Assembly (NCBI RefSeq): GCF_003148625.1
Contig: NZ_QGGO01000002.1
Location: 185,475-249,474, forward strand
From: Arcicella aurantiaca
Lineage (GTDB): Bacteria > Bacteroidota > Bacteroidia > Cytophagales > Spirosomataceae
Direction of reading: 5' to 3'
Length of the DNA: 64,000 nt
Shown one piece after another: positions 6,991-30,712 of the stretch. Every line of letters starts with the position of its first letter. The stretch's first letter is position 1. The position numbers were made by a program, and so were the translations under genes. The notes under the pieces are model-generated. The model saw nothing but the letters and a program-made list of their open reading frames with translations. It ran no database searches and was not told where the DNA came from.

Positions 6991-7029
6991 TAATCCTAAA
7001 AAAGCCTCAATCTTTTCCCGAATAATAAA

Positions 7030-7186
7030 TTATATGGGTAAAAAATTGAAAAATTTACCCATATCGAGAATTATATGGGTAAAAAATTGAAAAATTTACC
7101 CATATCGAGAATTATATGGGTAAAAAATCGAAAAATCTTAACACGTTTTTATAATATGTTAAGAAAATCGAAAAATCTTAACATAT
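7030..7186. repeat. Tandem 41-base hairpin repeats with two different stems and a shared loop
   Basis: Two copies of a 41-base unit (7030-7070, 7071-7111) and the start of a third. Each contains ATATGGGTAAA, an A-rich loop with TTGAAAAA, and TTTACCCATAT. A fourth hairpin at 7154-7186 keeps the loop (ATCGAAAAAT) but has the stem ATATGTTAAG/CTTAACATAT. The unit is not a multiple of three and all frames break, so this is not coding. With the pseudogene that follows, it fills the 700-base gap between fic and the helicase. Confidence 0.75.
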
Positions 7187-7206: not shown

Positions 7207-7694
7207 TGATTAATGCCATGCAATAATGCTTTAGAGACGCATACAGATTATCTAAGTTATTACAAGAGCTATGCAAAAGTGGATTTCTAACATCTGAAAA
7301 CAGAGGAAGATGGACGACATACCATCTTAATAAAACTTATAATGTTAAACAGAGTAGTTCCAATGAGGGTAGTTCTAATGGGGGTAGTTCTAATGGGGAT
7401 AGTTCTAATGAGGGTAGTTCTAATATGGACAGTCCCAATATGGACAGTTCTAATATGGATAGTTCTAATATGGACAGTTCTAATAAGAGATTATCATTTA
7501 ATGAAATGGCAAAATTAGTAAAAGCCTCTTGCTCAAACGAGTATAAATCGGCAGAAGAAATAGCTGTAGAAATCAACAGAGCTGTTAAATATTTAAAAAA
7601 CTTCATTTTACCCAAATTGATAGAAAACGGAGAGTTAATTAAATTGTTCCCAGATAATAATCCATTTCAAAAGTATAAATCAAATATCAAATAA
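7207..7694 (+). pseudogene. Decayed C-terminal end of an AlbA_2-type ATP-binding regulator
   Basis: A reading frame resuming after a stop near 7225 encodes a winged-helix segment (RLSKLLQELCKSGFLTSENR and GRWTTYHLN). Then come about ten Ser-Ser-Asn-x-x repeats (SSNEG, SSNGG, SSNMD) and a conserved-looking end (SFNEMAKLVKASC, VKYLKNFILPKLIENGEL). This layout is typical of the C-terminus of AlbA_2-domain DNA-binding proteins found beside restriction operons. The N-terminal domain is missing, and upstream the homologous frame (NALETHT) is out of phase, pointing to a frameshift plus deletion. An 89-codon frame from 7425 remains open and could be translated. It ends 6 bases before the helicase. 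Confidence 0.55.
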
Positions 7695-18168: not shown

Positions 18169-18738
18169 ATGAGCGAATTATCCCAAACAATTAATATCCG
18201 TACAACCTTCGATATGAAGAAACGGATATTAGACCATGCCGACAAAAAAGGTATGAACCAGTCTGAGTTTATTATTTATGCTGTTGAGAGTTTTCTGAAC
18301 GGTGGAAATAATCAGAATCCTGTTGAATCTAAATTGGATATTGACAATTCTTTTGTCCAACAACTTCAAGAACAGTTAGCGACCACAACTAACCAATTAA
18401 GGCTAATACAAGAAACTATGACTTCTGAAAGGAAAAGTATTTTACAAGAAGCGGTTGAGTTAGCTCAAAGAATGGCAACTGAAAAAATTCAGCAAGTACA
18501 AAACCAAGCCATTAGGGTTCATCAAGAAAGAACTCGAAACGATTTTGATGGGACTAATCAACAAATTAAAGTCTTACAAGAACGCTTATATGCTTACGAA
18601 ACACCATTATTAAAAGAAGTATTTATGATGGTATCTCAAAATCCTCAAATTAGAGACTATCCTGATGTCGTTTATTTTTTAGTTCATTGTTACTCTCAAC
18701 AATTTAAACAAACAACTCAATATGCAATTGGACAATAA
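18169..18738 (+). CDS. Ribbon-helix-helix DNA-binding protein with coiled coil
   Basis: 189 residues. Residues about 6-45 form a ribbon-helix-helix fold (QTINIRTTFDMKKRILDHA, NQSEFIIYAVESFLNGG). A long coiled coil follows (about 60-145), then a short globular end (VSQNPQIRDYPDVVYFLV). The layout recalls plasmid and phage partition or repressor proteins. Palindromes immediately upstream are likely binding sites. The last 17 bases overlap the next gene, so the pair is probably translated together. The RHH protein at 28635-29027 is of the same general type. Confidence 0.75.
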   Translation: MSELSQTINIRTTFDMKKRILDHADKKGMNQSEFIIYAVESFLNGGNNQNPVESKLDIDNSFVQQLQEQLATTTNQLRLIQETMTSERKSILQEAVELAQRMATEKIQQVQNQAIRVHQERTRNDFDGTNQQIKVLQERLYAYETPLLKEVFMMVSQNPQIRDYPDVVYFLVHCYSQQFKQTTQYAIGQ

Positions 18739-19141
18739 ATTTAGGTTTTCTTATGACCCTTTTGGTCTGGTTGATTTTAATAGTAAAAATGGTCGCTATG
18801 TACCTAAACCTCCTAAATCAAATTGGGGATGGGTTCTTTGGATTGTACTCTTGCTAATATTAGGACTTGGCATATTATTCCGAGAAACCATTTATAAGTT
18901 CTTCTTTCCCAAAACTGATGACGTAGATGATAAACCCGAAAAAGTAGAACCCAATGATGAAGTTTTAAAACAGCTCCCAGCGGTAACAGCTCAATCATTT
19001 AAGTTACAACCTGAACACAAAATAATTATACGACTCGACTTAGCAGATGAAGCTAAATGGGATTTAGAACTTTTGGAAGCAAAGAAAAAAGAGGGAAAAG
19101 CAGAGTTTGTAAAGGGCAAAGGTTGGCTATTATATGAGTAA
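18722..19141 (+). CDS. Small single-pass membrane protein paired with the RHH protein
   Basis: 139 residues, unrecognised family. A short N-terminal region (FRFSYDPFGLVDF) precedes one membrane helix at about 39-58 (WIVLLLILGLGILF). An acidic linker (DDVDDKPEKVEPNDE) and a soluble end with LDLADEAKWDLELLEAKKK follow. Starts inside the RHH gene and ends at a GTAATAC site and hairpin. A membrane protein also follows the RHH gene in the right-hand element (29484-29804), so the RHH-plus-membrane pairing may be a module; sequence similarity between the two membrane proteins is not obvious. Confidence 0.6.
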   Translation: MQLDNKFRFSYDPFGLVDFNSKNGRYVPKPPKSNWGWVLWIVLLLILGLGILFRETIYKFFFPKTDDVDDKPEKVEPNDEVLKQLPAVTAQSFKLQPEHKIIIRLDLADEAKWDLELLEAKKKEGKAEFVKGKGWLLYE

Positions 19142-19150
19142 TACAATGTA

Positions 19151-19191
19151 AAACCCTGTAAAACACGCAATTTTACGGTATTACAGGGTTT
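19151..19191. terminator. Hairpin after the RHH/membrane protein pair
   Basis: Arms AAACCCTGTAA (19151-19161) and TTACAGGGTTT (19181-19191) with a smaller inner stem. T-tract is weak. Also carries GTAATAC (19139-19145) and GTATTAC (19178-19184), so it may be a third operator copy rather than, or as well as, a terminator. Confidence 0.5.
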
Positions 19192-19195
19192 CATT

Positions 19196-19543
19196 CTATT
19201 CAAATTTGTATGTTGCATAGTTACTGATTGTACCCATTACTTGGAACGGATTTCGAGCCATTGAAGAAACGATAGAGCCAACTTCTGAAAAAGATTCTAA
19301 ATAACTATCTAATGGACTTGCCGCCTGTGGCGGATTTTTCTTCTTCCATTCTTCCCATTCCGTCTGCTCGTTGTCAGTAGCCAACCCTTGTTCTAATATA
19401 GTTTTCACCCACGGGTCTTTATAATATTCAGCCAAGAGTTTTTCAAAATTCGCCTGAGTTACTACTGTCTCATCTCTTTTGAAAAGATATATTATTGAAA
19501 ATATTAAGAGTTTTTTGAAAGTTGAATTTAAGGGGCAAAACAT
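19196..19543 (-). CDS. Hypothetical protein, probably truncated at its N-terminus
   Basis: 115 codons open. The first 26 or so residues (to about 19470) run antisense to the truncated integrase and look like chance; from VVTQANFEKLLAEYYKDPWV onward the sequence looks like a real protein tail (DSYLESFSEVGSIVSSMARN, PFQVMGTISNYATY). No ATG lies at that junction, so the original start was probably removed by the same rearrangement that cut the integrase. Family not recognised. Confidence 0.4.
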   Translation of the reverse strand: MFCPLNSTFKKLLIFSIIYLFKRDETVVTQANFEKLLAEYYKDPWVKTILEQGLATDNEQTEWEEWKKKNPPQAASPLDSYLESFSEVGSIVSSMARNPFQVMGTISNYATYKFE

Positions 19544-20303
19544 TCAATTGGAAGAAGTTGAGCCAATTGTAGCAGACAACCTAATTAACTACCTCAAAAA
19601 TGTACGTGGCAACCAACAAGACCATGCTGTAAGACATGCCAAAACATTAAAATCTGTTTTCGCTTTTGCTCAAGATAATGGCTGGATACCTTATAGTAAG
19701 TTTGCTAATAAATCTTACAAAAGAGGCGTGAAAAAGGAGATACATTTTTTAAATGAAAAAGAGATTCGACAAATTGTAGAATTGAAACTTTATAGTCCAA
19801 ACCTACAACTGGTAAAAGACCTCTATATATTCTCGTGCTATACAGGATTGAGCTTTGCAGATGTAATGAACCTAAAGGCTTCAGATATTCAGAGATACGA
19901 AGAAGACTTTGATTATATTTCTAAAGCAAGACAAAAAGGAGCCGAAAATAGCAATTTTAAGAAGAAAGTATTCTTTACTCCTGTTCTTCCTGAGGCAGAA
20001 AACATATTAAAGAAGTATGAAGAAATTGCTCAACTAAGTCCAGAGGGATTCTACTTCCCACGTATTACAAACCAGCAAATTAATAGAACCATCAAAGATA
20101 TTGCAGCCCTGGCTAAAATTGAAAATCCTGAAAAGGTCACTTACCATAGCTCACGAAGAACCTGTGCAAGTCTTTTGTATAATTATGGCGTTCCTATTTC
20201 AATCGTTGCGAAAGTTTTAGGACATTCATCAGAATTAGTAACACTCACACTCAACCCAAAAGTAGCAATTTGCCTCAAAATACCAATGATAGCAAACCAT
20301 TGA
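19479..20303 (+). pseudogene. Tyrosine recombinase (integrase) truncated at both ends
   Basis: The frame enters in the middle of the SAM-like core-binding domain (NIKSFLKVEF) and proceeds through the catalytic domain: FSCYTGLSFADVMNLK (first Arg replaced by Ser, as known for IntDOT-type enzymes), HSSRRTCASLLYNYG (H-x-x-R box) and VLGHSSELVTL. The reading frame then runs out of phase into the VapE gene, so the tyrosine nucleophile and C-terminus are missing. The N-terminal arm-binding domain is also absent. A full-length relative of 405 residues sits at 23340-24557. I regard it as inactive. Confidence 0.8.
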
Positions 20304-21469
20304 AGGTAAGTAATACAGAACTGGTCAGGCAATATTTTAAAGCAAATTATAAGTTTAGGTATAATACCATTACTGATACACCAGAATGGAGGACAATAAC
20401 AGATACAAGATTTAAGCCTCTGGATGATTACAAACTCAATAGTTTGTCTTTTGAGTTAGAAAGTAAAGGTTCAAATGTATCAACGGAGAAAATTTTCAAG
20501 TTATTAAAATCTGATTTTGTTGAGCTTGTAAATCCTATAAAAGAATATTTTGAAGGCTTAGAGTTTGAAGAGGAAGTAACAGGTAGTATCAAAAAACTCA
20601 CGCAAACTGTAAAAGTTGAAAACCCCACATTATTTGAAAACCACTTTACAAAATGGATAGTCGGAGTAATTGCCAATAGCTTAACTCGTGAAGGTTGTCA
20701 AAACCATACCTGTTTAGTGTTGACAGGTGACCAAGGTGCATATAAAACGACATGGCTAACCAACCTATGCCCACCCTCTTTAAAAGAATATATTTTCACG
20801 GGTAAAATAGACGTAGATAAAAATGATACTCAAAGTATGCTATCAGAGTTTCTAATAATCAATATCGACGACCAACTCCGAAATCTTAACCGTAAAGATG
20901 AAAATGCACTAAAGACGCTTATCACACTTGAATCTGTCAAAGTCAGGAAACCCTATGACCGAATGATTACCAAAAGACCGAGAATTGCATCATTCTGTGG
21001 AAGCGTCAACGGCAATGATTTTTTAACTGACCCTTCAGGCTCACGCAGGTTTTTACCATTTGAGGTAAAGAGTATTGATTTAGAAGAGTTTCAGAAAATA
21101 GACATAGATGCAGTCTGGACAGAAGCATTACAATTATTTCACAGTGGTTTTAGGTACTGGTTTACGAAAGAAGAAATTGCTGAAATAAATAACCACAATC
21201 AGGAGTTTGAAGTTACTGATACCGAAACAGAACTTCTCTTAGAATTATATGAAGCCGTGCCACGAAATAGTCCAGAATCAGAGGAATTAACATCAAGTAT
21301 CATTCTACATAATATTGAAAGTCATTTCAATACAAAGCTTAGTAGTAAAAAATTGGGCGATGCCCTAAGCAAACTCAAATTTATTCGTTTTGGGAAAAAA
21401 ATCAATGGGTCAGTCAGGTATCTATTTGTAGTCAAACCGAAAGATTTACAGAAAAGCAATCGGTTGTAA
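20270..21469 (+). CDS. VapE/DUF3874-type replicative helicase of the left element
   Basis: 399 residues from a TTG at 20270; the frame stays open upstream into the deletion joint, so the native start may be lost. P-loop GDQGAYKTTWL at about 162, Walker B-like FLIINIDDQ, and the SF3/VapE landmarks ASFCGSVNGNDFLTDPSGSRRFLPF, here given in two parts as seen around 245-265. The end carries a small winged-helix-like segment (KKLGDALSKLKFIRFG). These proteins act as initiator helicases for phage satellites and plasmids. Its last codons overlap the first of three GGTTGTAAGA iterons. Paralogous in kind to 25136-26425 but clearly divergent. Confidence 0.8.
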   Translation: MPQNTNDSKPLKVSNTELVRQYFKANYKFRYNTITDTPEWRTITDTRFKPLDDYKLNSLSFELESKGSNVSTEKIFKLLKSDFVELVNPIKEYFEGLEFEEEVTGSIKKLTQTVKVENPTLFENHFTKWIVGVIANSLTREGCQNHTCLVLTGDQGAYKTTWLTNLCPPSLKEYIFTGKIDVDKNDTQSMLSEFLIINIDDQLRNLNRKDENALKTLITLESVKVRKPYDRMITKRPRIASFCGSVNGNDFLTDPSGSRRFLPFEVKSIDLEEFQKIDIDAVWTEALQLFHSGFRYWFTKEEIAEINNHNQEFEVTDTETELLLELYEAVPRNSPESEELTSSIILHNIESHFNTKLSSKKLGDALSKLKFIRFGKKINGSVRYLFVVKPKDLQKSNRL

Positions 21470-21570
21470 GATAGATAGTCAATAGGTTGTAAGAACTTCT
21501 CTAAATCCACACAACAATCAAAACTTTGAATACCAAACTATTAATCTCAAAAAAAGTACGGTTGTAAGAT
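21459..21570. repeat. Three iterons downstream of the left VapE gene (putative origin)
   Basis: CGGTTGTAAGAT at 21459-21470 and 21559-21570, and AGGTTGTAAGAA at 21484-21495, all in the same orientation. Start-to-start spacings are 25 and 75 bases. The position immediately 3' of the helicase gene matches the place of the iteron array in the right-hand element. Confidence 0.6.
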
Positions 21571-21593
21571 AATAACTAAAAAAAGTATAAAAC

Positions 21594-21800
21594 ATGAAAA
21601 GATTAAGAATTCACACAGACGAAGTAATGTCCACAATGGGCTGGTCGAAAAAGCACACCTATAAGGTAATGCGTCTAATTAAAGACTGCTACCCTGATTC
21701 CAAAAAATATGTAATGGTCAAGGATTTTGCTAAACATATCGGTGCATCTGAAGACTACGTTCAAGATGCTATCAAGCAAACAAAAAACGAAGCCCCTTGA
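21594..21800 (+). CDS. Small HTH protein of the left element
   Basis: 68 residues: HTDEVMSTMGWSKKHTYKVM, then AKHIGASEDYVQDAI. The fold appears to be two helix-turn-helix-like units, resembling excisionase/MerR-type adaptors. It shares length, layout and several positions with the 77-residue protein at 27691-27924 (K.. Y..MR.. .. YPD), which holds the same place in the right-hand element. Probably a DNA-binding regulator or excision factor; unproven. Confidence 0.6.
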   Translation: MKRLRIHTDEVMSTMGWSKKHTYKVMRLIKDCYPDSKKYVMVKDFAKHIGASEDYVQDAIKQTKNEAP

Positions 21801-21903
21801 AAGGCTTTGTTTTTTGTTGTATATCATCACAAATCAAGAAGATTATATTAGTTTGAAAAAGCGTTTTGGAAAAGAATCACTTATTCTGGAAAAAAATTCA
21901 ACA

Positions 21904-21937
21904 AAAAAGCCTTAAATCGAATGATTTAAGGCTTTTT
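21904..21937. terminator. Terminator at the junction of the two elements
   Basis: Arms AAAAAGCCTTAAATC (21904-21918) and GATTTAAGGCTTTTT (21923-21937). The stem is the same as that of the terminator at 2866-2911 although loops differ. Ends directly at attL. The remaining gap to 22177 has a TTGATTATCAA near 21975 and a hairpin AACTTTA/TAAAGTT (22147-22162), otherwise nothing clear. Confidence 0.75.
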
Positions 21938-21947
21938 GCTCCCTCTC
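21936..21947. repeat. attL: 12-base direct repeat of the tRNA-Asn end
   Basis: TTGCTCCCTCTC, identical to 30636-30647. Nine of these bases (CTCCCTCTC) belong to the 3' end of the tRNA-Asn gene at the other junction. This marks the left boundary of the integrated element. Confidence 0.7.
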
Positions 21948-22177
21948 AAATAGTGGAAAGCAACCGAATAACATCTTGATTATCAAGGAATAAAATAACT
22001 TTATATAAAGAATGAACCTAATTTTGTTCAACCGAATCATCACCATTGAAAGAACAAAGTTACACTTAAATACAGTTAAACGCTATTTTGGTGTTCCAAA
22101 ATGATTTTCTGTTGCTCCTGACTTCGTTCCAATTATTAGTAACTAAAACTTTATCTAAAGTTACATGAAACTGCTAT

Positions 22178-22879
22178 TTAAAAACGATTTTCATTTTCTT
22201 TAAGGTTCGCTTGATATTTAACAAGAAAATCGTAATATTCTTTTCTGAATAAAGTAATATTAATTTCTCCAATAATAGCCTTTAACCGTTTTGTATTTTC
22301 CACTATCGTATTAAAAATAGAACTCTTTATCGTAAATCGGGTTTCGTCCCCATCAAGCACATTGCTAATTTCAATTTCTCTGGCTTCGTTAAAACTGCGT
22401 CGAAATTTCCTAAATATATCACTTGATAAGTCTGATGAATTTGAGCTATTTTCTTGATTTAACATATATTTTTTGCTCAGAAATTCCATTACATTTTCAA
22501 TTTCTTGCATTGCAATATTATAGGCAAGTAATATCGTAGGGTTTGCATTTGAATACTCATAGTCATCTAACTCTTTCTTCAGCCGTCTTTTATCATCCTC
22601 CAAATCCGTAATCCTGAGTTTCAATTCTTCATTCTCTTTCAAAAGCCTTTTCATCTCATCAGAATTGATGTTGGTATTAGAAATATCAACACCTATAAGC
22701 TCTGTAACCGATACGCCTAAGGCATTAGCTATTAATTCAATTTGCTCTAAGCTCAGTTTCTTTCCACGTTTTTCAAGTTTTGCGTATTGTGAGTTGTCCA
22801 TATTTAAGGCATCAGCAATCTCTATTTGCTTTATCCTTTTGGATTCTCTAATCTGCTTTATTCTATTTTCAATATTCAT
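22178..22879 (-). CDS. XRE-family repressor with coiled coil
   Basis: 233 residues. N-terminal helix-turn-helix of the XRE type at about 5-60 (QIEIADALNMDNSQYAKLE, LSLEQIELIANALGVSVTEL). A leucine-rich coiled coil follows (about 75-108), then an unfamiliar helical C-terminal domain likely for oligomerisation or signal sensing. It is divergent from the Cro-like gene and the integrase, the arrangement of CI/Cro or SaPI Stl/Str switches. A minus-strand TAACTTTG box sits only four bases before its start codon, so the mRNA may be leaderless. Confidence 0.82.
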   Translation of the reverse strand: MNIENRIKQIRESKRIKQIEIADALNMDNSQYAKLEKRGKKLSLEQIELIANALGVSVTELIGVDISNTNINSDEMKRLLKENEELKLRITDLEDDKRRLKKELDDYEYSNANPTILLAYNIAMQEIENVMEFLSKKYMLNQENSSNSSDLSSDIFRKFRRSFNEAREIEISNVLDGDETRFTIKSSIFNTIVENTKRLKAIIGEINITLFRKEYYDFLVKYQANLKENENRF

Positions 22880-22883
22880 AATT

Positions 22884-22976
22884 CAAAGTTATGTCATTAT
22901 TTGACAACAATAATATACAAATTTATCCAAAATCATTTGGATAAATGGACGAAATTATCCAATTTTGAGGACAAAT
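22884..22976. promoter_or_regulatory. Control region between divergent repressor and Cro-like genes
   Basis: Minus strand: TTG and then TAACTTTG (22884-22891), 16 bases apart, for the repressor. A perfect inverted repeat ATTTATCCAAA (22921-22931) and TTTGGATAAAT (22936-22946) around ATCA is the best operator candidate. A half-site ATTATCCAATTTT follows at about 22954-22966. Location and symmetry suggest competition between the repressor and the Cro-like protein. Confidence 0.6.
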
Positions 22977-23007
22977 AATTCCATTTTGTGTCAAAATAGA
23001 TAGAGAA

Positions 23008-23220
23008 ATGAATACAAACCCAATAATTACGGCTAAAAACGCCTATGAAGCACGTTTAGGAGTCAATTTTTCTCCTAATGAAGAAACTCTAACTCGCTTA
23101 GGGTTTAAGAAAAAAAGACTGACAAGAATATTATCAGGCAAAACAACCAAACCGCTAACCGCAACAGAAGCTAAAGGACTGGCAGAGATGCTCAATGTTC
23201 CTGTTTCTCAAATTATTTAA
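23008..23220 (+). CDS. Cro-like small HTH protein
   Basis: 70 residues: RLGFKKKRLTRILSGKTTKP followed by TATEAKGLAEMLNVPVSQII, a compact XRE-like helix-turn-helix. Divergent from the repressor at 22178-22879 and upstream of the integrase, so it is most likely the opposing regulator of the element's switch. Assignment rests on size, fold pattern and position. Confidence 0.65.
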   Translation: MNTNPIITAKNAYEARLGVNFSPNEETLTRLGFKKKRLTRILSGKTTKPLTATEAKGLAEMLNVPVSQII

Positions 23221-23251
23221 GTCTAAAAGTATGAGAAAGTCTAAAAAAAAA

Positions 23252-23276
23252 TCCCTAACGATTTAACCGTTAGGGA
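23252..23276 (-). terminator. Hairpin with U-tract on the minus strand
   Basis: Arms TCCCTAACG (23252-23260) and CGTTAGGGA (23268-23276). Nine A bases precede it, so the good U-tract is on minus-strand transcripts; the plus-strand tail (CTTACTATTTT) is weaker. It lies between the Cro-like gene and the integrase. Confidence 0.6.
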
Positions 23277-23339
23277 CTTACTATTTTAATTTAACTGATT
23301 GCAACAGTTTGCCGACAATGCAACCAAAAAATGTAAACA

Positions 23340-24557
23340 ATGGCAAAAATACAAAAAAAACAGAACAACTCCGAAAGGGTGCTGAGAATCCCCGATGTTG
23401 CCTTTTCCAATAGGCAAGGTAAAGTACAAATAAGGTTTAAGCACGGAGGAGAAGACCGTAAATTATCTTTGAACCAGACCATTGGAAAACGAAAAATTGA
23501 TTCAAAGACTGGCTACATAGAAAATGACCCAATAGCTACTCAATTGCTTTTAGAATATCGTAACCGATTTCGAGAGACTTACAAAAACTTTATCCTGAGA
23601 GGAGCAGAACCGTCAATAGAGGATATTAAAGATGGTATATTTTTTAGGACAACTTCTACTCCTATACCTTCTCTAAAAGTAGCAATGCAAGATTATTTCG
23701 ACCAAGATTATGGAAAAGACAGCAAAAAGGACGAGAAAACCATAGAGAAGAACGGCTACATGATGCGGTATGTATTAGAATGGCTTAATGATATTGGCAA
23801 AAGCGATATTTCAGTAAAATCAATCAATGCTAATCATGCAGAACAACTTCTGAACTGGGTAATGGCAAACCGAAGCGTTGAGAAGGAGCATAGCCGTAGA
23901 AGCGTTGGTTTCTTGGAGAGAGCTTTAAAATTTAGTGTTAATAATGGTTGGATTGCTCGCAATCCATTTGAATATGTTTTGATGGAGAAGAAATTTAAAC
24001 GCCAAAGTAAGCCAATTACCAAATTCCTAACGCCAAACGAAGTGAAAGCCATTGAGCAACTGGACAACTTACAACCAGAGTTAGCATTGATTCGTGATTA
24101 CTTCCTTTTTTCATGCTATACTGGCATGGATGAAATTACACTAAGAGTCGCAAAAAAGGAATGGCTAAAAGACAAAAACGGTCAAGCCTATATCGAAGGA
24201 TTTAGAGGTAAACCAGACGGAGACATACATCATCAGTTTGTAGTACCTATTTGTCCTAAAGCGGAAAAGCTAATTGAGAAATTTACCGCTATGAGCGAAG
24301 GAGATTCATTATTACCAATTATGACGTACAATCAGCAAATAAACATCATGCTAAAGTGTATAGCCAAAATGGCAGGAGTAAATAAACCTGTTTCGTTTGG
24401 GTTTGGTCGCAAAACATTTGCCACTACAAAAATCAATGATGGAGTGAGAATAGAAATTATCCAATTAATGATGGGGCATACCTCCATAAAAACAACCATA
24501 GGGTATTACGCCCACATTGACATAAACACCGTGCTAAAGGAGGGCTTAACAAAATGA
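23340..24557 (+). CDS. Tyrosine recombinase, integrase of the tRNA-Asn element
   Basis: 405 residues, full Bacteroidota phage-integrase length. Arm-binding domain about 20-100, SAM-like core-binding domain about 110-215, catalytic domain from about 225. Nucleophile region LMMGHTSIKTTIGYYAHI keeps His and the tyrosine. However the first catalytic Arg position reads YTGMDEITL and the H-x-x-R box reads FGFGRKT, so the box I Arg and box II His are both absent. Integrases lacking the box I Arg are known (IntDOT); loss of both is unusual. The start is an ATG just after a hairpin. It overlaps the next gene by four bases (ATGA). Expected to recombine the 12-base repeat at tRNA-Asn. Confidence 0.9.
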   Translation: MAKIQKKQNNSERVLRIPDVAFSNRQGKVQIRFKHGGEDRKLSLNQTIGKRKIDSKTGYIENDPIATQLLLEYRNRFRETYKNFILRGAEPSIEDIKDGIFFRTTSTPIPSLKVAMQDYFDQDYGKDSKKDEKTIEKNGYMMRYVLEWLNDIGKSDISVKSINANHAEQLLNWVMANRSVEKEHSRRSVGFLERALKFSVNNGWIARNPFEYVLMEKKFKRQSKPITKFLTPNEVKAIEQLDNLQPELALIRDYFLFSCYTGMDEITLRVAKKEWLKDKNGQAYIEGFRGKPDGDIHHQFVVPICPKAEKLIEKFTAMSEGDSLLPIMTYNQQINIMLKCIAKMAGVNKPVSFGFGRKTFATTKINDGVRIEIIQLMMGHTSIKTTIGYYAHIDINTVLKEGLTK

Positions 24558-24820
24558 GAAATTATCAATTACTATGTTTTCAATTGATGGAAAAATATGG
24601 CAAAAAAGCCAAAATACAGGGTGAACAGATGCTAAAAAGCAAAGGGAAACAACGCCAAAAAAGTAAGATTTTATACTTTTTCTATTTAGAAAATGGTCAA
24701 TACTGGCAATACAGAATGAAGGAGGATATAATGGAAAATGGGCTTAAATTAGGTACAGGACAAAAACTAAACAGCCTTTTATTTAACTCTTTTTCTGCCA
24801 ATAACGGATTTTTCAATTAA
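24554..24820 (+). CDS. Small hypothetical protein coupled to the integrase
   Basis: 88 residues, basic: LMEKYGKKAKIQGEQMLKSK, then LYFFYLENGQYWQYRMKEDI. The start codon overlaps the integrase stop (ATGA), indicating translational coupling. No family recognised. Candidate directionality factor or helper of the integrase by position only. Confidence 0.5.
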   Translation: MRNYQLLCFQLMEKYGKKAKIQGEQMLKSKGKQRQKSKILYFFYLENGQYWQYRMKEDIMENGLKLGTGQKLNSLLFNSFSANNGFFN

Positions 24821-24839
24821 TAACTAAAACAACAAAAAA

Positions 24840-25031
24840 ATGAAAAACTTAGAAGTAACCAACACAGTAGCAGAAGGATTAGACTTAGACAGAATGAACG
24901 CCACATTAGAACGACTATTTGAAGGTTATTCAAGCTCGCAAATGGCAGAAAACGACGACCACGAGCAACGAATGGTACTAACGGAGGATTTCTTCAACTT
25001 TAAACGACTACTAAAGAGCCTTAAAGACTAA
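24840..25031 (+). CDS. Small acidic hypothetical protein
   Basis: 63 residues: LDLDRMNATLERLFEGYSSS, then LTEDFFNFKRLLKSLKD. Net acidic and helical. Follows the previous gene by 19 bases and ends just before a hairpin, so it closes the integrase transcript. Family not recognised. Confidence 0.5.
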   Translation: MKNLEVTNTVAEGLDLDRMNATLERLFEGYSSSQMAENDDHEQRMVLTEDFFNFKRLLKSLKD

Positions 25032-25039
25032 ACAAAAAA

Positions 25040-25066
25040 GCCCGAACAATTAAAGATTGTTCGGGC
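25040..25066. terminator. GC-rich hairpin between integrase and replication genes
   Basis: Arms GCCCGAACAAT (25040-25050) and ATTGTTCGGGC (25056-25066), loop TAAAG. The A-tract on the left gives a strong U-tract on the minus strand; on the plus strand the tail is AATTGATTTT. Confidence 0.65.
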
Positions 25067-25135
25067 AATTGATTTTAAGGCATAAGAAGTCCAGAAACGA
25101 AAACGCCTCATTAAAATCTTAAAAAACTAAAGACA

Positions 25136-26425
25136 ATGACGAAGTTAGTTAAAAAAGGTGAAATCCAAGGAGTTACACCCGAAAAAGGCAGAGAAAAGTC
25201 TGCACAAAAAAATGAAACTAATCATACTAATCCTGTTATAGCAACAAATCCAAACCCTGATAACAAGCCCAATCAACCATTAATTCTAAGATTAGAAGAT
25301 TATATTTTCAATAAATATGACCTGAGAATGAATATAGTTTCTAATGAATTAGAAGGCAAATTAAAGAAAGATTCTGAATATGGTTTATTTAGCGAAGACC
25401 AATTGACTTATGACCTTTTTGTAAAAGGATTTAACAAATTCAACACTCAACTATCCGTGTTAATTTCCACAAAAGTACCTAAATATGACCCATTAAAAGA
25501 GTATTTCGAGAATCTTCCCAAGTGGGATAATTCACAACCAGACTATATCAAAAGACTGTCAGATTTTGTAGTTACTGACAGTGGTGATTGGTGGGAACTA
25601 ATGTTTAAAAAGCATCTTGTCAGAATGGTTGCTCAAGCCATTCTAAAAATACCTTTTAATAAGCAGTGTCTAACTCTTATAGGCAAACAAAATGACGGAA
25701 AAACATCTTTCTTAGAATTTCTTGTTCCCCCTAAACTATCAAAATACTACCGAAAAGGTTTTGACTTTGGAGGTAACAAAGACGGTAAAATTTCCTTATG
25801 CCAAAACTTTGTAATCAATTTGGACGAATTGGCAAGTTTTGACAAGAAGGAACTAAACAACGATTTCAAGACAATTTTAACTGAATCAATAGTAAAATTT
25901 AGAGGTCTATTTGCTAAAAGTGAAACCACTCATAGCAGAAGAGCAAACTTCGTGGCGAGTACAAACCAATACGAGTTCTTGACTGACGAAACAGGCAACG
26001 TTAGATGGTTGCCTTTTGTAGTGAAGGAGATTAACCACGATAACGGAAAATCAAAAGGTTATCAAGCCAATATAGATATAAATTTAGTATGGTCACAAGC
26101 GTATAGTTTATTGATTAGCGGAAATTTTGATTTTATTTTATCGAAAGATGAAATACAAACACAAGAAAAAAGAAATCAGCGATTTATGAAAGTTAGTGCC
26201 GAGATGGAAGCAATCCAGAAGTATTTTATCTCAGGAAACGAAGATGATAGAAATAGCAAATTTTTAACCGCAACCGATATTCAACTGAAATTAGTATTAA
26301 AAGGAATTAAACTAAGCCATATTTCAATTGGGAAAGCCTTAAAAACATTACAATTCCAAGTTTCAGAAAAATATTATAAAGAATGTAAATATAGTATAAA
26401 AGGGTATTATATCAAAGAATTGTAA
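25136..26425 (+). CDS. VapE-type replicative helicase of the tRNA-Asn element
   Basis: 429 residues. A polar N-terminal 50 residues, then a domain with P-loop IGKQNDGKTSFLEFL at about 184-198, Walker B-like FVINLDELASFDKKELN, a sensor-like VASTNQYEFL and arginine-rich ETTHSRRANF, and ETGNVRWLPF. The C-terminal segment (LKGIKLSHISIGKALKTLQF) looks like a winged helix for origin binding. VapE proteins are SF3-like initiator helicases common in satellites. Located directly before the iteron array and the primase. Related in layout to the left-element protein, which has diverged in sequence and in the iterons beside it. Confidence 0.85.
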   Translation: MTKLVKKGEIQGVTPEKGREKSAQKNETNHTNPVIATNPNPDNKPNQPLILRLEDYIFNKYDLRMNIVSNELEGKLKKDSEYGLFSEDQLTYDLFVKGFNKFNTQLSVLISTKVPKYDPLKEYFENLPKWDNSQPDYIKRLSDFVVTDSGDWWELMFKKHLVRMVAQAILKIPFNKQCLTLIGKQNDGKTSFLEFLVPPKLSKYYRKGFDFGGNKDGKISLCQNFVINLDELASFDKKELNNDFKTILTESIVKFRGLFAKSETTHSRRANFVASTNQYEFLTDETGNVRWLPFVVKEINHDNGKSKGYQANIDINLVWSQAYSLLISGNFDFILSKDEIQTQEKRNQRFMKVSAEMEAIQKYFISGNEDDRNSKFLTATDIQLKLVLKGIKLSHISIGKALKTLQFQVSEKYYKECKYSIKGYYIKEL

Positions 26426-26431
26426 AAACAA

Positions 26432-26725
26432 CTTACTCTCTTACTCGAATGATTATAATATATTGAATATCAATCACTTAAATATATTTTTTCGAGTAAG
26501 ATATAATATTTAATCTTACTCGAAAAAAATATAAATTACTAAAAACCAATACATTATATATATATTATCGAGTAAGATTATGTTATTCCAAAAAGTATCT
26601 TACTCGAAAAACGGAGTAGTTTTCGAGTAAGATAGTAAGATAGAGAATACTATCCTACTCGAAAAAAATAACCATAAATAACTGACAATCAATTAATTGA
26701 AATTATTCGAGTAAGAGAGTAAGAA
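26432..26725. repeat. Iteron array, putative replication origin
   Basis: Fills the 367-base gap between helicase and primase. Eight copies of TCGAGTAAGAT or close variants: 26440 (minus), 26492 (plus), 26513 (minus), 26568 (plus), 26597 (minus), 26623 (plus), 26652 (minus), 26707 (plus). Orientation alternates strictly, and partial copies (GTAAGA) flank the outer and third pairs. The surrounding bases are almost pure A/T, as in a melting region. Confidence 0.8.
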
Positions 26726-26792
26726 TAAATCAAATTTTCAAAAGTCTGCTACTCAAAATAAAATTGAAATTGTACTTTAACAATAATATAAA

Positions 26793-27680
26793 ATGAAAAC
26801 CCACGAACAAATAAACCAACTAAAACAAATATCCATCATAGATTATCTAAGTGGAAAAGGCATAAGTCCAGTCTCAAGAAATGGCAGTAATTTCCTGTAT
26901 CATTCTCCGCTCCGTCAGGACAGTACACCGTCTTTTTCAGTAAGTCCAACCCTCAACGTTTTTAACGACTTCGGTAACGATGCCGATAAAGGAAGCATAA
27001 TTGACTTAGTAATGAAGTTAGAGAAAATCGGATTTGTAGATGCTTGTAGCTTATTAGAGAGAATGGACGACAAAAGAGAAAGAGACGGCTCCCAAACTCT
27101 TTCTCTCTCTTGTCGTCCAATCTCTCAGGAAGACCCCGAAGGCTATACCATCAAATCGGTTGCTAACTTACAACACCCTGCTTTAATGCGATATGTAAAA
27201 AATCGTGGAATCAACCTAAATACTGCATTCAATTACCTCCAAGAAATTCACTATACAAATTCAAAAGGGCAATTTTTTGGAGTGGGATACAAAACTGATA
27301 ACGGAGGGTATGTTTTAAGGAGCGAAATCATGCAGAAACCTATAAATTTGGGTAAATCTGGCATTAAAACTTTTACATTCCCTAATAGTAATACCATATC
27401 AGTATTTGAGGGAATGTTTGATTTTCTATCAGCCATAGAATACTACAAGCGTCCGCCACGATGTACGGCTATCATACTAAATTCTGTAACGAACCTAAGT
27501 AAAGCAATACCACAATTAACGGAAGCAACCACGATTTACAGTTATATGGACAATGACGAAGCAGGACGAAAAGCAACGCAAAAAATGAGAGATGCAGGGT
27601 TAAACGTTCAAGATTGTTCAAGTATGTATTCAGACAAAGATTTTAAAGACTTCAATGAGTTTTTAGCCAGTACAATTTAA
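26793..27680 (+). CDS. Toprim-domain primase of the element
   Basis: 295 residues. N-terminal CHC2-like segment (YHSPLRQDSTPSFSVSPT, FNDFGNDADKGSIIDLVM) in which the zinc-binding cysteines are not seen. A linker follows, then a Toprim domain with the acidic positions in SVFEGMFDFLSAIEYY (about 208) and YSYMDNDEAGRKATQ (about 250). Such short primases accompany VapE helicases in Bacteroidota mobile elements and lay RNA primers for their replication. The iteron array is directly upstream. It may be cotranscribed with the HTH gene 10 bases downstream. Confidence 0.85.
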   Translation: MKTHEQINQLKQISIIDYLSGKGISPVSRNGSNFLYHSPLRQDSTPSFSVSPTLNVFNDFGNDADKGSIIDLVMKLEKIGFVDACSLLERMDDKRERDGSQTLSLSCRPISQEDPEGYTIKSVANLQHPALMRYVKNRGINLNTAFNYLQEIHYTNSKGQFFGVGYKTDNGGYVLRSEIMQKPINLGKSGIKTFTFPNSNTISVFEGMFDFLSAIEYYKRPPRCTAIILNSVTNLSKAIPQLTEATTIYSYMDNDEAGRKATQKMRDAGLNVQDCSSMYSDKDFKDFNEFLASTI

Positions 27681-27690
27681 GACTTTAAAC

Positions 27691-27924
27691 ATGGAGAAAA
27701 ATATAACTTTCAAATGTCCGCTTTACTTGACTGTCGATGACATTAAAATTTTGCTCAGAAGAGAAAAGTCTTTTTGCTACGATTACATGAAAACATTAAG
27801 AATACTATACCCTGATAGATGCAAGAATGGAAAAAATATACCATCAAATGTATTCTCTGAATATACAGGTAATTCATTAGAAGATATAGCCGAAATACTC
27901 GAAGCATCCAAGCGAAAAATTTAG
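27691..27924 (+). CDS. Small HTH protein of the tRNA-Asn element
   Basis: 77 residues: LTVDDIKILLRREKSFCYDY, then VFSEYTGNSLEDIAEILE. Two helix-turn-helix-like halves. Same layout as the 68-residue protein at 21594-21800. Starts 10 bases after the primase. Possible excisionase or regulator. Confidence 0.6.
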   Translation: MEKNITFKCPLYLTVDDIKILLRREKSFCYDYMKTLRILYPDRCKNGKNIPSNVFSEYTGNSLEDIAEILEASKRKI

Positions 27925-27988
27925 TTCCATTGTTTCCACACTTTCCATGCTTTCCACCCTTGTTAATTCATTTCTTCAATATTTGTAA

Positions 27989-28023
27989 CCTCTGATAAGT
28001 AAGAATTATCGGAGGGTTTTTTA
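27989..28023 (+). terminator. Intrinsic terminator after the replication genes
   Basis: Arms CCTCTGATAA (27989-27998) and TTATCGGAGG (28006-28015) with one wobble pair, followed by GTTTTTTATT. Confidence 0.75.
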
Positions 28024-28039
28024 TTAAAAATCAAAGAAC

Positions 28040-28630
28040 ATGAACAACCCAATTACAATATTTCCCGACGAGGAAATGGCAGAAAAATTTAAACAAAAAA
28101 GAGAATCTTTAGGCATGACCGAAGAAGAGTATTTCGCCCATTTAATGGAATTATCGGACGAGGACGAATATGCCGAAATAGAGGACGAAGAACCAGACGA
28201 AGAGGACGAAGAAACCGAAATAGAGGACGAAGAAACCGAAATAGAGGACGAAGAATTTGACGAGGAATTGACAGGTATTACGGACATATCTGACAATGAT
28301 TCTATCATTAAAGAATTAAAGCTCCAAGTAAAAGCTCGTGAAGATGAACTCATCCATGTTAACGAAGAATTAAACGGCATCATCAACTATCCAAGAATCA
28401 ATCTATTATTTGACCTTGTCAGAGGGCATACGCTAAAGATTAACAATACAGATATTGAGATGGTCATCAGAACAAAAAAGGACTTCATTCAATGCCTTGT
28501 TAAGAATTTCCATGCTAACATAGATTCTGAAGACTTTGGAATTGATAGTGATGAATTTGAAGAAATGGAGAACGAAGCATTTAAAGATTACGAAGAAGAG
28601 GACGAAAACGACGACGAAGATGACGAATAG
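28040..28630 (+). CDS. Highly acidic protein with repeated Glu/Asp tract
   Basis: 196 residues. A short N-terminal domain (EKFKQKRESLGMTEEEYFAH) precedes an almost uninterrupted acidic tract (about 38-78) built from repeats of EDEETEI. A coiled coil (about 92-118), a small globular part (LLFDLVRGHTLKINN) and a second acidic tail (KDYEEEDENDDEDDE) follow. No family recognised. The extreme negative charge could mimic DNA or bind basic proteins; that is speculation. It begins right after a terminator, so it heads its own unit with the RHH gene, which starts 4 bases after its stop. Confidence 0.65.
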   Translation: MNNPITIFPDEEMAEKFKQKRESLGMTEEEYFAHLMELSDEDEYAEIEDEEPDEEDEETEIEDEETEIEDEEFDEELTGITDISDNDSIIKELKLQVKAREDELIHVNEELNGIINYPRINLLFDLVRGHTLKINNTDIEMVIRTKKDFIQCLVKNFHANIDSEDFGIDSDEFEEMENEAFKDYEEEDENDDEDDE

Positions 28631-28634
28631 AAAC

Positions 28635-29027
28635 ATGGAAAAGACCAGTAAAATATCATTCAGATTGTCCGATGAGTTAAAGACATTTCTATCTGACAAC
28701 GCTAATCGTGGCGAATTATCCATGACAGACTTCTGTATTTGGATTTTAACGTCCTACAAAAATGGAGAAGACATTACGGGCAACATTGAGAATTACGGAG
28801 TTAAAGAGGATGCAAGATTAAACGAAATTTTAGCGGAATTTGAAACATATAAACGAAGAGCATTCAACGAAATTGAAGCTCTTAAAAAGGATAAATCCAA
28901 TCTTATAACAAAATATAACGAATTACAATCTAAGATTATTCAAGAGTGCAAGGGTGTAATTAAAAATGAGGTGGAGAAAGCCTATAAAAGAGGATTTGCC
29001 GAAGCAGAAAAAACAAATAATAAATAA
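28635..29027 (+). CDS. Ribbon-helix-helix protein with coiled coil
   Basis: 130 residues from the ATG at 28635, chosen because earlier in-frame codons lie inside the preceding acidic gene and read as basic noise. RHH at about 4-45 (KISFRLSDELKTFLSDNA, SMTDFCIWILTSYKNG), coiled coil at about 65-115. Similar in layout to the RHH protein at 18169-18738. It is encoded 1 kb before two phased iteron arrays, and RHH proteins of the ParR type bind such arrays, so a partition or origin-handling role is possible. Confidence 0.7.
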   Translation: MEKTSKISFRLSDELKTFLSDNANRGELSMTDFCIWILTSYKNGEDITGNIENYGVKEDARLNEILAEFETYKRRAFNEIEALKKDKSNLITKYNELQSKIIQECKGVIKNEVEKAYKRGFAEAEKTNNK

Positions 29028-29040
29028 CTCAAAAAAGAAT

Positions 29041-29451
29041 ATGGCACAATTTAATAAAAACGATAAAGTATATGCTGGAAATAGTGGTGTCTCAATGTTT
29101 GAAAATGCTGAAAAAAGAGGTGTATTCTCTAAAGCAAGTCCAGATGTTTTGAATCCATGTATTACTCACTACCGAAAATATTTAGGTGAACAACAGGAAA
29201 GTCAAGAGCCATACAAAAGTTTAACATTCCTTCCTTATGTTAATTCTCCAATTATTAAAAGAATTTGGCTTCCTGAGTCTTACATTGGCATAGCTACTTG
29301 AGAAAGATACTCACTTGGTGGAGTATCTTACATTCAAGTCCAATATGATGCCAATAAAATCACATTTAATAATCAAGAATTGGCAGCCTATACAACAATA
29401 CAACGTTTAGCATGGGTTAAAGAAGTTTCCATTTCTGATACTGGCTATTAA
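29041..29451 (+). pseudogene. Hypothetical protein interrupted by an in-frame TGA
   Basis: ATG at 29041, in-frame TGA at 29299-29301, then the same frame stays open to TAA at 29449-29451. Before the stop: VYAGNSGVSMFENAEKRGVF, LTFLPYVNSPIIKRIWLPES. After it: YSLGGVSYIQVQYDANKI, AYTTIQRLAWVKEVSIS. The second part looks like a genuine protein end, so I infer one protein of about 136 residues broken by a nonsense mutation (or misread base). Family not recognised. The first 86 residues may still be made. Confidence 0.6.
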
Positions 29452-29483
29452 TTAATGAAAACACATTCTAATCAAAAATAAAT

Positions 29484-29804
29484 ATGTGGGAAGACGAAGA
29501 ACAACCCAAAACAAACCCACTCTTTGACTTAATAGGTAGTGGACTTAACACAGTAGGGCAAACCATAGGAACAGTTGTAACAAGTGATAATGCCCGTAAA
29601 ATAGCACAAACAAAGGCAGAACAAGAGAAGGAATTAGCCATCATTGCGGCAAAGAAAGCAAAAACAGACGGCTTTTTTTTTGTTGGGGGCATTGCAATAT
29701 TTTTTCTATTCATAGGTATAATTATATGGGCAAAAAAGCCTAAATATTACCAAGTAGGGCAATCATACGCATTAAGTGGTATTCACGTACCCAAAGTTGT
29801 TTAA
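29484..29804 (+). CDS. Small membrane protein of the element
   Basis: 106 residues. Soluble N-terminus (NPLFDLIGSGLNTVGQTIGT), an Ala/Lys/Glu helix, one membrane segment at about 66-85 (FFFVGGIAIFFLFIGIIIW), then a short tail ending SGIHVPKVV. No signal peptide. Resembles coat-like or holin-like small phage membrane proteins in size only; function unknown. Confidence 0.6.
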   Translation: MWEDEEQPKTNPLFDLIGSGLNTVGQTIGTVVTSDNARKIAQTKAEQEKELAIIAAKKAKTDGFFFVGGIAIFFLFIGIIIWAKKPKYYQVGQSYALSGIHVPKVV

Positions 29805-29897
29805 AGGAAACCCTATCATTCATTTTCATTCCTTTTGCTCAATAAATTTCCTTCAAATGGCGTAAATTTATTGACAAAGCAAAAAGCGAAACAACTA

Positions 29898-29929
29898 AAA
29901 TCCTGACGATAAACCGTTGGGATTTTTTG
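29898..29929 (+). terminator. Terminator after the last gene of the element
   Basis: Arms AAATCCTGACG (29898-29908) and CGTTGGGATTT (29915-29925) pair with two wobble pairs, followed by TTTTTGTTTTT. Confidence 0.7.
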
Positions 29930-30039
29930 TTTTTAACCATTCTCAATTTTTCAATGGTGAAAAACCTGCACCATTAGAACAGTTTACGAAGAACTTAATT
30001 AGCGTTAATTAAACGAGAATTAAAAATAGATATATTTAG

Positions 30040-30176
30040 TCAGTTCAACTCCAAAACACCAAAGTTTAACTCCAAACTACCAAAGTTTAACTCTAAACAC
30101 CTAAAGTTTAACTCCAAACTACCAAAGTTTAACTCCAAACTACCAAAGTTTAACTCCAAACTACCAAAGTTTAACT
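30040..30176. repeat. Six tandem repeats with a 21-base period
   Basis: AAAGTTTAACTCCAAACTACC-type units begin at 30061, 30082, 30103, 30124, 30145 and 30166, exactly 21 bases apart, with a partial seventh at about 30040. Twenty-one bases equals two helical turns. No gene covers this 834-base stretch (29805-30638). Confidence 0.85.
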
Positions 30177-30219
30177 ATTAATGAATATTGTCTTACAACT
30201 TTTATAATGAGTTGAATGA

Positions 30220-30458
30220 CTGTCCGACAACGTAAGACAATCATTTAATAGAAATTACAACCTGTCCGACAAAGTAAGACGCACTATTAATCAATAATAC
30301 AACCTGTCCGACAAAGTAAGACACACTATTAATCAATAATACAACCTGTCCGACAAAGTAAGACACACTTTTAAACGATAATACAACCTGTCCGACAAAG
30401 TAAAACACACTTTTAAACGATAATACAACCTGTCCGACAAAGTAAGACACACTTTTTA
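30220..30458. repeat. Six tandem repeats with a 42-base period
   Basis: CTGTCCGACAAAGTAAGACA or near copies begin at 30220, 30262, 30304, 30346, 30388 and 30430, exactly 42 bases apart (four helical turns). Each core contains the palindrome TGTCCGACA followed by GTAAGACA; an inverted TGTCTTAC lies at 30189. An 83-codon frame on the minus strand is a by-product of the period being a multiple of three. Confidence 0.88.
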
Positions 30459-30548
30459 AACGACTACTGTATAAGTTTAAAACAACAAACATCTTGTTTT
30501 AAACCTTGTTTCACGACTGAAATAGTCCCAAAAACACGCAAAAAAAGC

Positions 30549-30628
30549 ACTGTTCCAAACGCTTGGAACAGTAAATAAAAATTGTTCCAACAAAAAAGCC
30601 TTCATACGTAACGTATGAAGGCTTTTTG
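30549..30628. terminator. Two hairpins inside the right end of the element
   Basis: First: ACTGTTCCAA (30549-30558) and TTGGAACAGT (30563-30572), with a third TGTTCCAA at 30583-30590, which looks more like a protein site than a terminator. Second: AAAAGCCTTCATACG and its complement (30591-30628), A/T flanked, a bidirectional terminator protecting tRNA-Asn. Could also be integrase arm sites. Confidence 0.6.
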
Positions 30629-30635
30629 TGATTAA

Positions 30636-30647
30636 TTGCTCCCTCTC
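30636..30647. repeat. attR: 12-base direct repeat overlapping tRNA-Asn
   Basis: TTGCTCCCTCTC, identical to 21936-21947. It covers the last nine bases of the tRNA gene, the classical target of tyrosine integrases. Confidence 0.7.
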
Positions 30648-30712
30648 CTGGGCTCGAACCAGGGACCCCATGATTAACAGTCATGTGCTCTAACCGGCTG
30701 AGCTAAGAAGGA
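30639..30712 (-). tRNA. tRNA-Asn (anticodon GUU)
   Basis: 74 bases without encoded CCA. Acceptor TCCTTCT pairs with AGAGGGA (one G-U), discriminator G. D-loop AGCTCAGCCGGTTAGAGC, anticodon loop CTGTTAATC with GTT, T-arm CCTGGTTCGAGCCCAGG. The 3' end is the integration site of the element to its left. Confidence 0.93.

Follow-up and report, generated by a model that had tools for sequence, protein, structure and literature searches.

Close to its right end, an integrative element of 8.7 kb (21936-30647), hereafter called E2, carries the repeats considered here. E2 occupies the 3' end of a tRNA-Asn gene in the window, that is, the whole 64-kb stretch of DNA that was analysed (table 1). E2 shares with PICIs an integrase, a C1-type repressor, a primase/helicase module and a specific att site, together with what appears from its sequence to be an AT-rich, iteron-bearing putative origin 3' of the helicase gene; it is probably a small, satellite-like integrative element that replicates itself. 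Immediately to its left, and at the same tRNA site, lies a second element, E1 (~18169-21935), which encodes an RHH-like/coil protein, a TM protein, an integrase, VapE and a small HTH protein, and for which no left att copy was found at up to two mismatches. E2 DNA gave no match in plasmids and phages. Two further repeat arrays are present outside the element, at 7028-7136 (2.7 copies of 41 bp) and 7355-7485 (8.7 copies of 15 bp), and within E2 four TTTCCA-type repeats with a spacing of ~9 bp (27925-27961) follow o77 just before a terminator-like hairpin. The in-frame TGA of o29 is its codon 87, which code 4 would read as W, and may reflect a disrupted gene or an assembly error.

Table 1. Features of E2 and of its integration site, with positions in the window.
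Feature	Position	Strand	Remarks
att repeat TTGCTCCCTCTC	21936-21947	none	left end of E2, equal to the right end of the tandem element E1
C1-type repressor	22178-22879	-	
Tyrosine integrase	23340-24557	+	
VapE-like helicase	25136-26425	+	PF05272, E 2.8e-30
Likely replication origin	26425-26792	none	eight TACTCGA iterons in strictly alternating orientation, 78% AT
DnaG-type primase	26793-27680	+	CHC2 zinc finger and Toprim
o77, small protein	27691-27924	+	HTH-like by inspection; no family match
Acidic repeat-containing protein	28040-28630	+	first gene of the RHH operon
P0001, RHH-like and coiled coil, 130 aa	28635-29027	+	candidate array-binding protein
o29, protein without homologue	29041-29451	+	one in-frame TGA at 29299-29301
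Small protein, single hydrophobic segment that probably spans the membrane	29484-29804	+	last gene before the arrays
Intrinsic terminator	29897-29926	+	ends the RHH-TM operon ahead of the arrays
21-bp array	30042-30182	none	six full AGTTTAACTCCAAACTACCAA units (30042-30167) and a seventh begun at 30168
Gap between the arrays	30183-30219	none	37 bp, 76% AT, single reversed half site GTCTTAC at 30190
42-bp array	30220-30459	none	six units of near-invariant CTGTCCGACAAAGTAAGAC and ~23 nt of variable spacer
Hairpin, 11-bp stem	30475-30504	none	immediately right of the 42-bp array
GTTCCAA boxes, likely integrase arm sites	30552, 30563 (reversed), 30584; span 30552-30590		partners at 22093 and 22126
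att repeat TTGCTCCCTCTC	30636-30647	none	right end of E2, at the 3' end of tRNA-Asn
tRNA-Asn	30638-30712	-	integration target

Tandem repeat analysis with TRF resolved the first array into 6.4 copies of 21 bp (92% match, score 226, 30042-30176) and the second into 5.6 copies of 42 bp (91% match, score 369, 30220-30456), and the steps between successive units are exactly 21 bp (five times) and exactly 42 bp (five times), which bears out the original prediction of six units at each of these periods. The AGTTTAACT sites of the 21-bp array start between 30063 and 30168, one per 21 bp, the first unit having the form AGTTCAACT, whereas GTCCGAC recurs once per 42 bp in the second array, with starts from 30222 to 30432. 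About 19 nt of the 42-bp unit (GTCCGAC-AAA-GTAAGAC and its flank) are near-invariant and partly palindromic; the remaining ~23 nt vary in sequence while keeping a constant length, and these spacers drift gradually from unit to unit. Lag autocorrelation gave z values of 12.9 at 21 bp and 18.8 at 42 bp, the 42-bp array being the strongest 140-bp repeat piece of the entire window by this measure.

The phase coherence of the two arrays is maximal (R 1.00 at T 10.50 bp), in line with the earlier proposal that the motifs lie on the same face of the helix; however, exact tandem duplication by itself would return the same value, and the spacing taken alone is therefore little proof of phasing, for which the independent evidence comes from related elements. 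The possibility that the arrays are non-functional duplications, with their exact spacing as a by-product, agrees with the gradual change of the spacers along the 42-bp array, as successive duplication predicts, and with the array being known from a single genome. We nevertheless regard it as improbable, given that two different motifs lie back to back, each with a period that is a multiple of 10.5 bp, that a near-invariant 19-nt core sits beside variable spacers, and that phased arrays with unrelated motifs recur by the replication modules of relatives.

An ORF of 83 amino acids spans the 42-bp array on the minus strand, which follows from 42 being divisible by 3. Its variable columns are evenly distributed over the codon positions (8/7/6) and coding repeats were thus rejected, so that the earlier statement that nothing is encoded at the arrays is very probably right. 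Structured RNA was also rejected, since no Rfam match reached the gathering score between 26300 and 30800 except for the tRNA. No sigma-70-like promoters were found between 29700 and 30720, versus a mean of 3.4 in shuffled sequences, and the arrays are flanked by a terminator on one side and a hairpin on the other, without any promoter-like site, which makes a role as operator unlikely.

To place the arrays in an evolutionary context, we examined 80 stretches around relatives of VapE, which were found in 47 of 149 genomes, and around relatives of the primase, which are widespread, many of the weak matches being probably chromosomal primases. Fifty-nine distinct primase genes with enough sequence downstream, including that of the window, were scored for phased direct repeats with z of at least 4.5 after the primase stop. 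Such arrays were found at 20 of the 59 loci with unrounded z values (22/59 when z is rounded to one decimal), compared with 4 of 303 random pieces, mostly coding, and with 14 of 332 matched 3'-intergenic pieces that follow other genes of these loci. The latter control is conservative because arrays belonging to the elements themselves (L049, L064 and L129) are counted in it; some of the scored loci are closely related, so that the counts lack independence. Among the 20 arrays the lags are 11 (nine loci), 12 (four), 22 (four), 31, 46 and 48, and none of the 14 control arrays has a lag of 11, 12 or 22. The primase of the window is not itself directly followed by an array (z 3.0). Four relatives (L032, L033, L038 and L127) carry two back-to-back arrays with different core motifs, as in the window. 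A further repeat region, at 7812-8193 of L049, lies between the VapE and serine resolvase genes and is made up of GGTATTACC-type repeats whose period is close to 44 bp.

Analogous arrays are thus present in related elements, as the original prediction expected, but identical ones are absent: the array, P0001 and o29 were found in this genome only, and one other genome contains one stray single array site. The double 42-bp motif was not found in IMG/VR or in GTDB contigs, and no second replicon with the array motif of E2 was found in the host assembly. The expectation of a conserved phase held in part, since two loci considered below (L064 and L167) keep a 10.5-bp grid, but strict helical phasing in all relatives was rejected, since four of the 20 post-primase arrays have a 12-bp period, which is not helical, and the two linked to parA fit 11.7-11.8 bp.

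The recurrence of repeats directly after the primase gene in 20 of 59 related loci raises the possibility that the arrays are replication iterons, forming an accessory or second origin or a copy-control site for VapE/primase or for an unrecognised initiator. According to the account in PMC6092414, the origin of PICIs lies immediately 3' of the initiator gene and contains two sets of iterons; moreover, the semi-palindromic 42-bp site with its central AAA resembles RepA_N-type iterons reported for the PLE satellite. Yet E2 has a better candidate in the gap between vapE and primase, which fits the rule just cited and which, on the basis of its sequence, is likely to be a satellite-type origin. 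The ACTCGA motif is found in the same gap in 10 of 22 related loci, distant relatives included, and the TACTCGA iterons are not helically phased (R 0.60, with 1533 of 3000 random placements as good). The arrays lie 3.6 kb past vapE and 2.4 kb from the primase gene and have a lower AT content (65-69%) than the vapE-primase gap, and no RepA_N-type protein was seen in the family search of E2. The arrays were therefore rejected as the origin of E2, a function that the original prediction had listed together with those of centromere and packaging site. Overall, replication iterons are the main remaining rival to a centromere-like site, albeit an unlikely one.

With a distance of 177-594 bp to the att core, close to the right end of E2, the arrays might belong to the attachment site, as arm sites or accessory sites of the integrase or of an excisionase that assembles the recombination complex. 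The GTTCCAA boxes are better placed for this function: five of them flank the att core on both sides within 429 bp, where 0.11 would be expected (Poisson P 1e-7), whereas the array motifs are confined to its right side. In three relatives whose integration tRNA is in view (L035, L036 and L136) similar arrays adjoin the primase gene, up to ~3 kb from the integration tRNA. The arrays were consequently rejected as integrase arms, and any wider part in the attachment site appears improbable.

In two other genomes of the genus (L064 and L167), such an array stands immediately before a gene whose product has, by inspection, an N-terminus of RHH-like type and an extended coiled coil; array and gene lie after a primase-like DUF6371 gene. 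These arrays (4432-4680 in L064 and 1240-1500 in L167) contain 13 and 14 GTTTAC/GTTTTC boxes, respectively, in both orientations and with varied spacers. The boxes fall on a grid of 10.52 and 10.46 bp, with R values of 0.98 and 0.97 that none of 3000 random placements attained; simple tandem duplication cannot explain a grid formed by boxes of both orientations and variable spacing. Boxes and grid are conserved between the two genomes, and the proteins are 51-52% identical, that of L064 having no Pfam match. In E1 and in the two relatives of its type that were checked (L068 and L069), GTATTAC boxes immediately precede the RHH-like/coil gene, but their phasing is weak (R 0.83-0.88 with an optimum near 10.9 bp; matched by 49-190 of 3000 random placements).

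In three other related elements (L108, L110 and L157), an array of TGTAGGCACAA lies directly upstream of a gene for a ParA ATPase (AAA_31, E 4e-32). The steps of the L108 array alternate between 22 and 24-27 bp; of the L157 array only the last two copies are visible, at the edge of its contig. This combination of parA and TGTAGGCACAA array is possibly a new par variant in integrative elements. The partner gene that accompanies parA in L108 and L157 (153 and 184 aa) has no match in Pfam or NCBIfam.

For the majority of the 20 array loci, the stretch examined shows no parA and no RHH-like gene, and no RHH family was present among the 25 listed of the 49 Pfam families that 74 ORFs matched (72 of 96 from the array loci, plus two from L157). 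The arrays of most relatives would thus need another binder or represent a different type of site. A gene for a small Zn-finger protein follows the primase-side array at 13 of these 20 loci, as against 7 of the 39 others (Fisher 5e-4, ignoring kinship). This conserved gene (NGLRNYxFExV..., e.g. 11799-12053 in L035) is a candidate binder of the 11-bp arrays; it was rejected as binder of the E2 arrays, because none was found in E2. Cargo genes also recur after the array (4636-6875 in L051, 12159-14654 in L054 and 3812-5751 in L131), and include that of a membrane-anchored LEA_2-like protein; their products are possibly structural or surface proteins.

The RHH protein that the original prediction had placed 1 kb upstream of the arrays is indeed encoded there, as P0001, but its assignment to the RHH class derives from a sequence signature and from profile matches below cut-off, to NikA-like proteins (E 0.015) and MbpA (E 0.001), which weakly suggest this fold. 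No PDB entry matched P0001 below E 0.2, and its AlphaFold model (pLDDT 52) has no beta strand; this model and that of o29 (pLDDT 37) are poor and thus unfit for a fold search. P0001 has no significant similarity to the RHH-like protein of L064 (BLASTP E 0.44) and no homologue in 222 genomes of the family, in plasmids or, by scans with peptide patterns, in IMG/VR or GTDB. Homologues of o29 were likewise absent from phages, IMG/VR and the 222 family genomes, and for the TM protein encoded at 29484-29804 there were none in IMG/VR and one weak match of 43 aa in the family genomes.

The families matched weakly by these RHH-like proteins, NikA-like for both P0001 and its E1 counterpart and MbpA for P0001, are involved in mobilisation. 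The arrays could then be oriT-like, or an accessory site of the relaxosome, through which a helper mobilises the element in trans, with the RHH/coil protein of E2 as an accessory factor of the NikA, MbpA or possibly TraM kind. This seems very improbable, since the family search of E2 proteins yielded no relaxase and all the matches in question are below curated cut-offs. A further alternative is a pac-like packaging site recognised by the small terminase of a helper phage or by a protein of E2: the gene content of E2, with integrase, repressor, helicase, primase and no recognised structural gene, resembles that of a phage satellite, but it also lacks any recognisable terminase, capsid or other packaging gene, no phage record matches its right part and no helper is known. 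We give this alternative, too, very little probability.

We put the chances at about even that the arrays are a maintenance site of centromere-like type which has no ParA or ParM of its own and to which the RHH/coiled-coil protein binds. Both arrays would then form a single cis-acting, non-transcribed DNA site. After excision and circularisation of E2, this site would be coated by a DNA-binding protein as a regular nucleoprotein fibre, in which one pair of protomers sits at each second or fourth helical turn, always on the same face of the helix, and the coated site would spread or anchor the copies of the E2 circle much as a centromere does. P0001 would be the likeliest binder, possibly assisted by the neighbouring membrane protein or by a partner from the host or a helper, such partners being proposed because E2 is without a partition ATPase. 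In this scheme we infer the RHH fold, the binding to the arrays, the segregation function and the anchoring partner.

A centromere-like site would explain the same-face spacing of the motifs, their position away from any operator, the existence of separate sites for origin and integrase arms, and the fact that phased arrays of sister elements are paired with RHH-like or parA genes. The evidence against it is the absence of a motor, since the family search of E2 proteins found no partition NTPase (ParA, ParM or TubZ) and the ParA of L108 gave no tblastn match in the window, together with the lack of homologues of P0001, the separation of 1 kb between its gene and the arrays, and the absence of the motif from the RHH promoter, no copies being present upstream of 28040. 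The centromere proposed originally thus gains from the RHH-like pairing in L064 and L167 and from the three pairings with parA, but loses from the missing ParA/ParM and from the isolation of P0001. We do not class the E2 array as a par locus, because two defining features, an NTPase and adjacency to the operon, are lacking: the arrays are downstream of the RHH operon, past its terminator, and have no copies at the promoter. That the array works like a centromere is a separate claim from membership of the par loci, and it remains a likely one.

A wider generalisation, which we regard as rather doubtful, is that the tRNA-integrating, satellite-like elements of this bacterial family carry a module for segregation or anchoring that has no motor. 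The module would consist of an RHH/coil protein and an array on a 10.5-bp grid, the motif switching between elements, thereby avoiding incompatibility, while the grid is kept, and the membrane protein of E2 and E1 would be a possible tether. The usual assumption is that integration and replication functions suffice for satellites and small integrative elements of other kinds. Recurrent, helically phased arrays by the replication modules of many such elements, in some cases with parA and in others with an RHH-like/coil gene and no motor, would mean that dedicated maintenance sites are carried as well, and the turnover of motifs on a fixed helical grid would provide a natural test of how centromere fibres are built and of segregation without an ATPase. 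With the terms used, no prior description of such arrays in these elements was found in the open-access literature searched.

Among known systems, a close parallel is offered by the centromeres of type Ib and type II plasmid loci (parH, parS and parC, with ParG, omega and ParR), in which RHH proteins bind tandem direct repeats to form a regular fibre (PMC5016525). The 21- and 42-bp spacing of E2 suits a fibre of this kind, and three elements related to E2 pair their array with parA; unlike such par loci, E2 has no NTPase and its array is not upstream of a par-like operon. The RHH of P0001 would be N-terminal and its coil C-terminal, whereas the adaptors of type Ib are described as having a C-terminal RHH (PMC5016525). 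A motor-less precedent may be plasmid R388, whose stbDRs, as described in PMC3098194, comprise two sets of direct repeats, five to a set, each repeat being 9 bp long and separated from the next by 2 nt (11-bp period). They stabilise the plasmid via StbA, and the authors discuss segregation without a motor. E2 also has two consecutive sets of repeats and several of its relatives have the 11-bp period, but its own periods are 21 and 42 bp, the general family search of its proteins identified no StbA homologue, and the stbDRs, by the same account, surround the stb promoter.

SGI1 is an integrative element with parS sites which, according to PMC10954446, owes its stability to the ParAB of its helper; its sites differ from those of E2 in being two single inverted-repeat sites that match the helper's own. 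Direct repeats that precede parAB on chromosome II and on the megaplasmid of Deinococcus are reported to help replicon maintenance (PMC7671480), and these iterons beside par genes resemble arrays of the E2 type in that respect, although, in the same report, they have a length of 18 bp, are accompanied by DnaA boxes and ParB, and combine origin and centromere functions. Finally, E2 resembles PICIs and other phage satellites in its integrase, repressor, primase/helicase and AT-rich iterons 3' of the helicase gene (cf. PMC6092414), and the description of the PICI origin given there fits the region 26425-26792, so that the arrays stand out as an additional site near the right end of the element.
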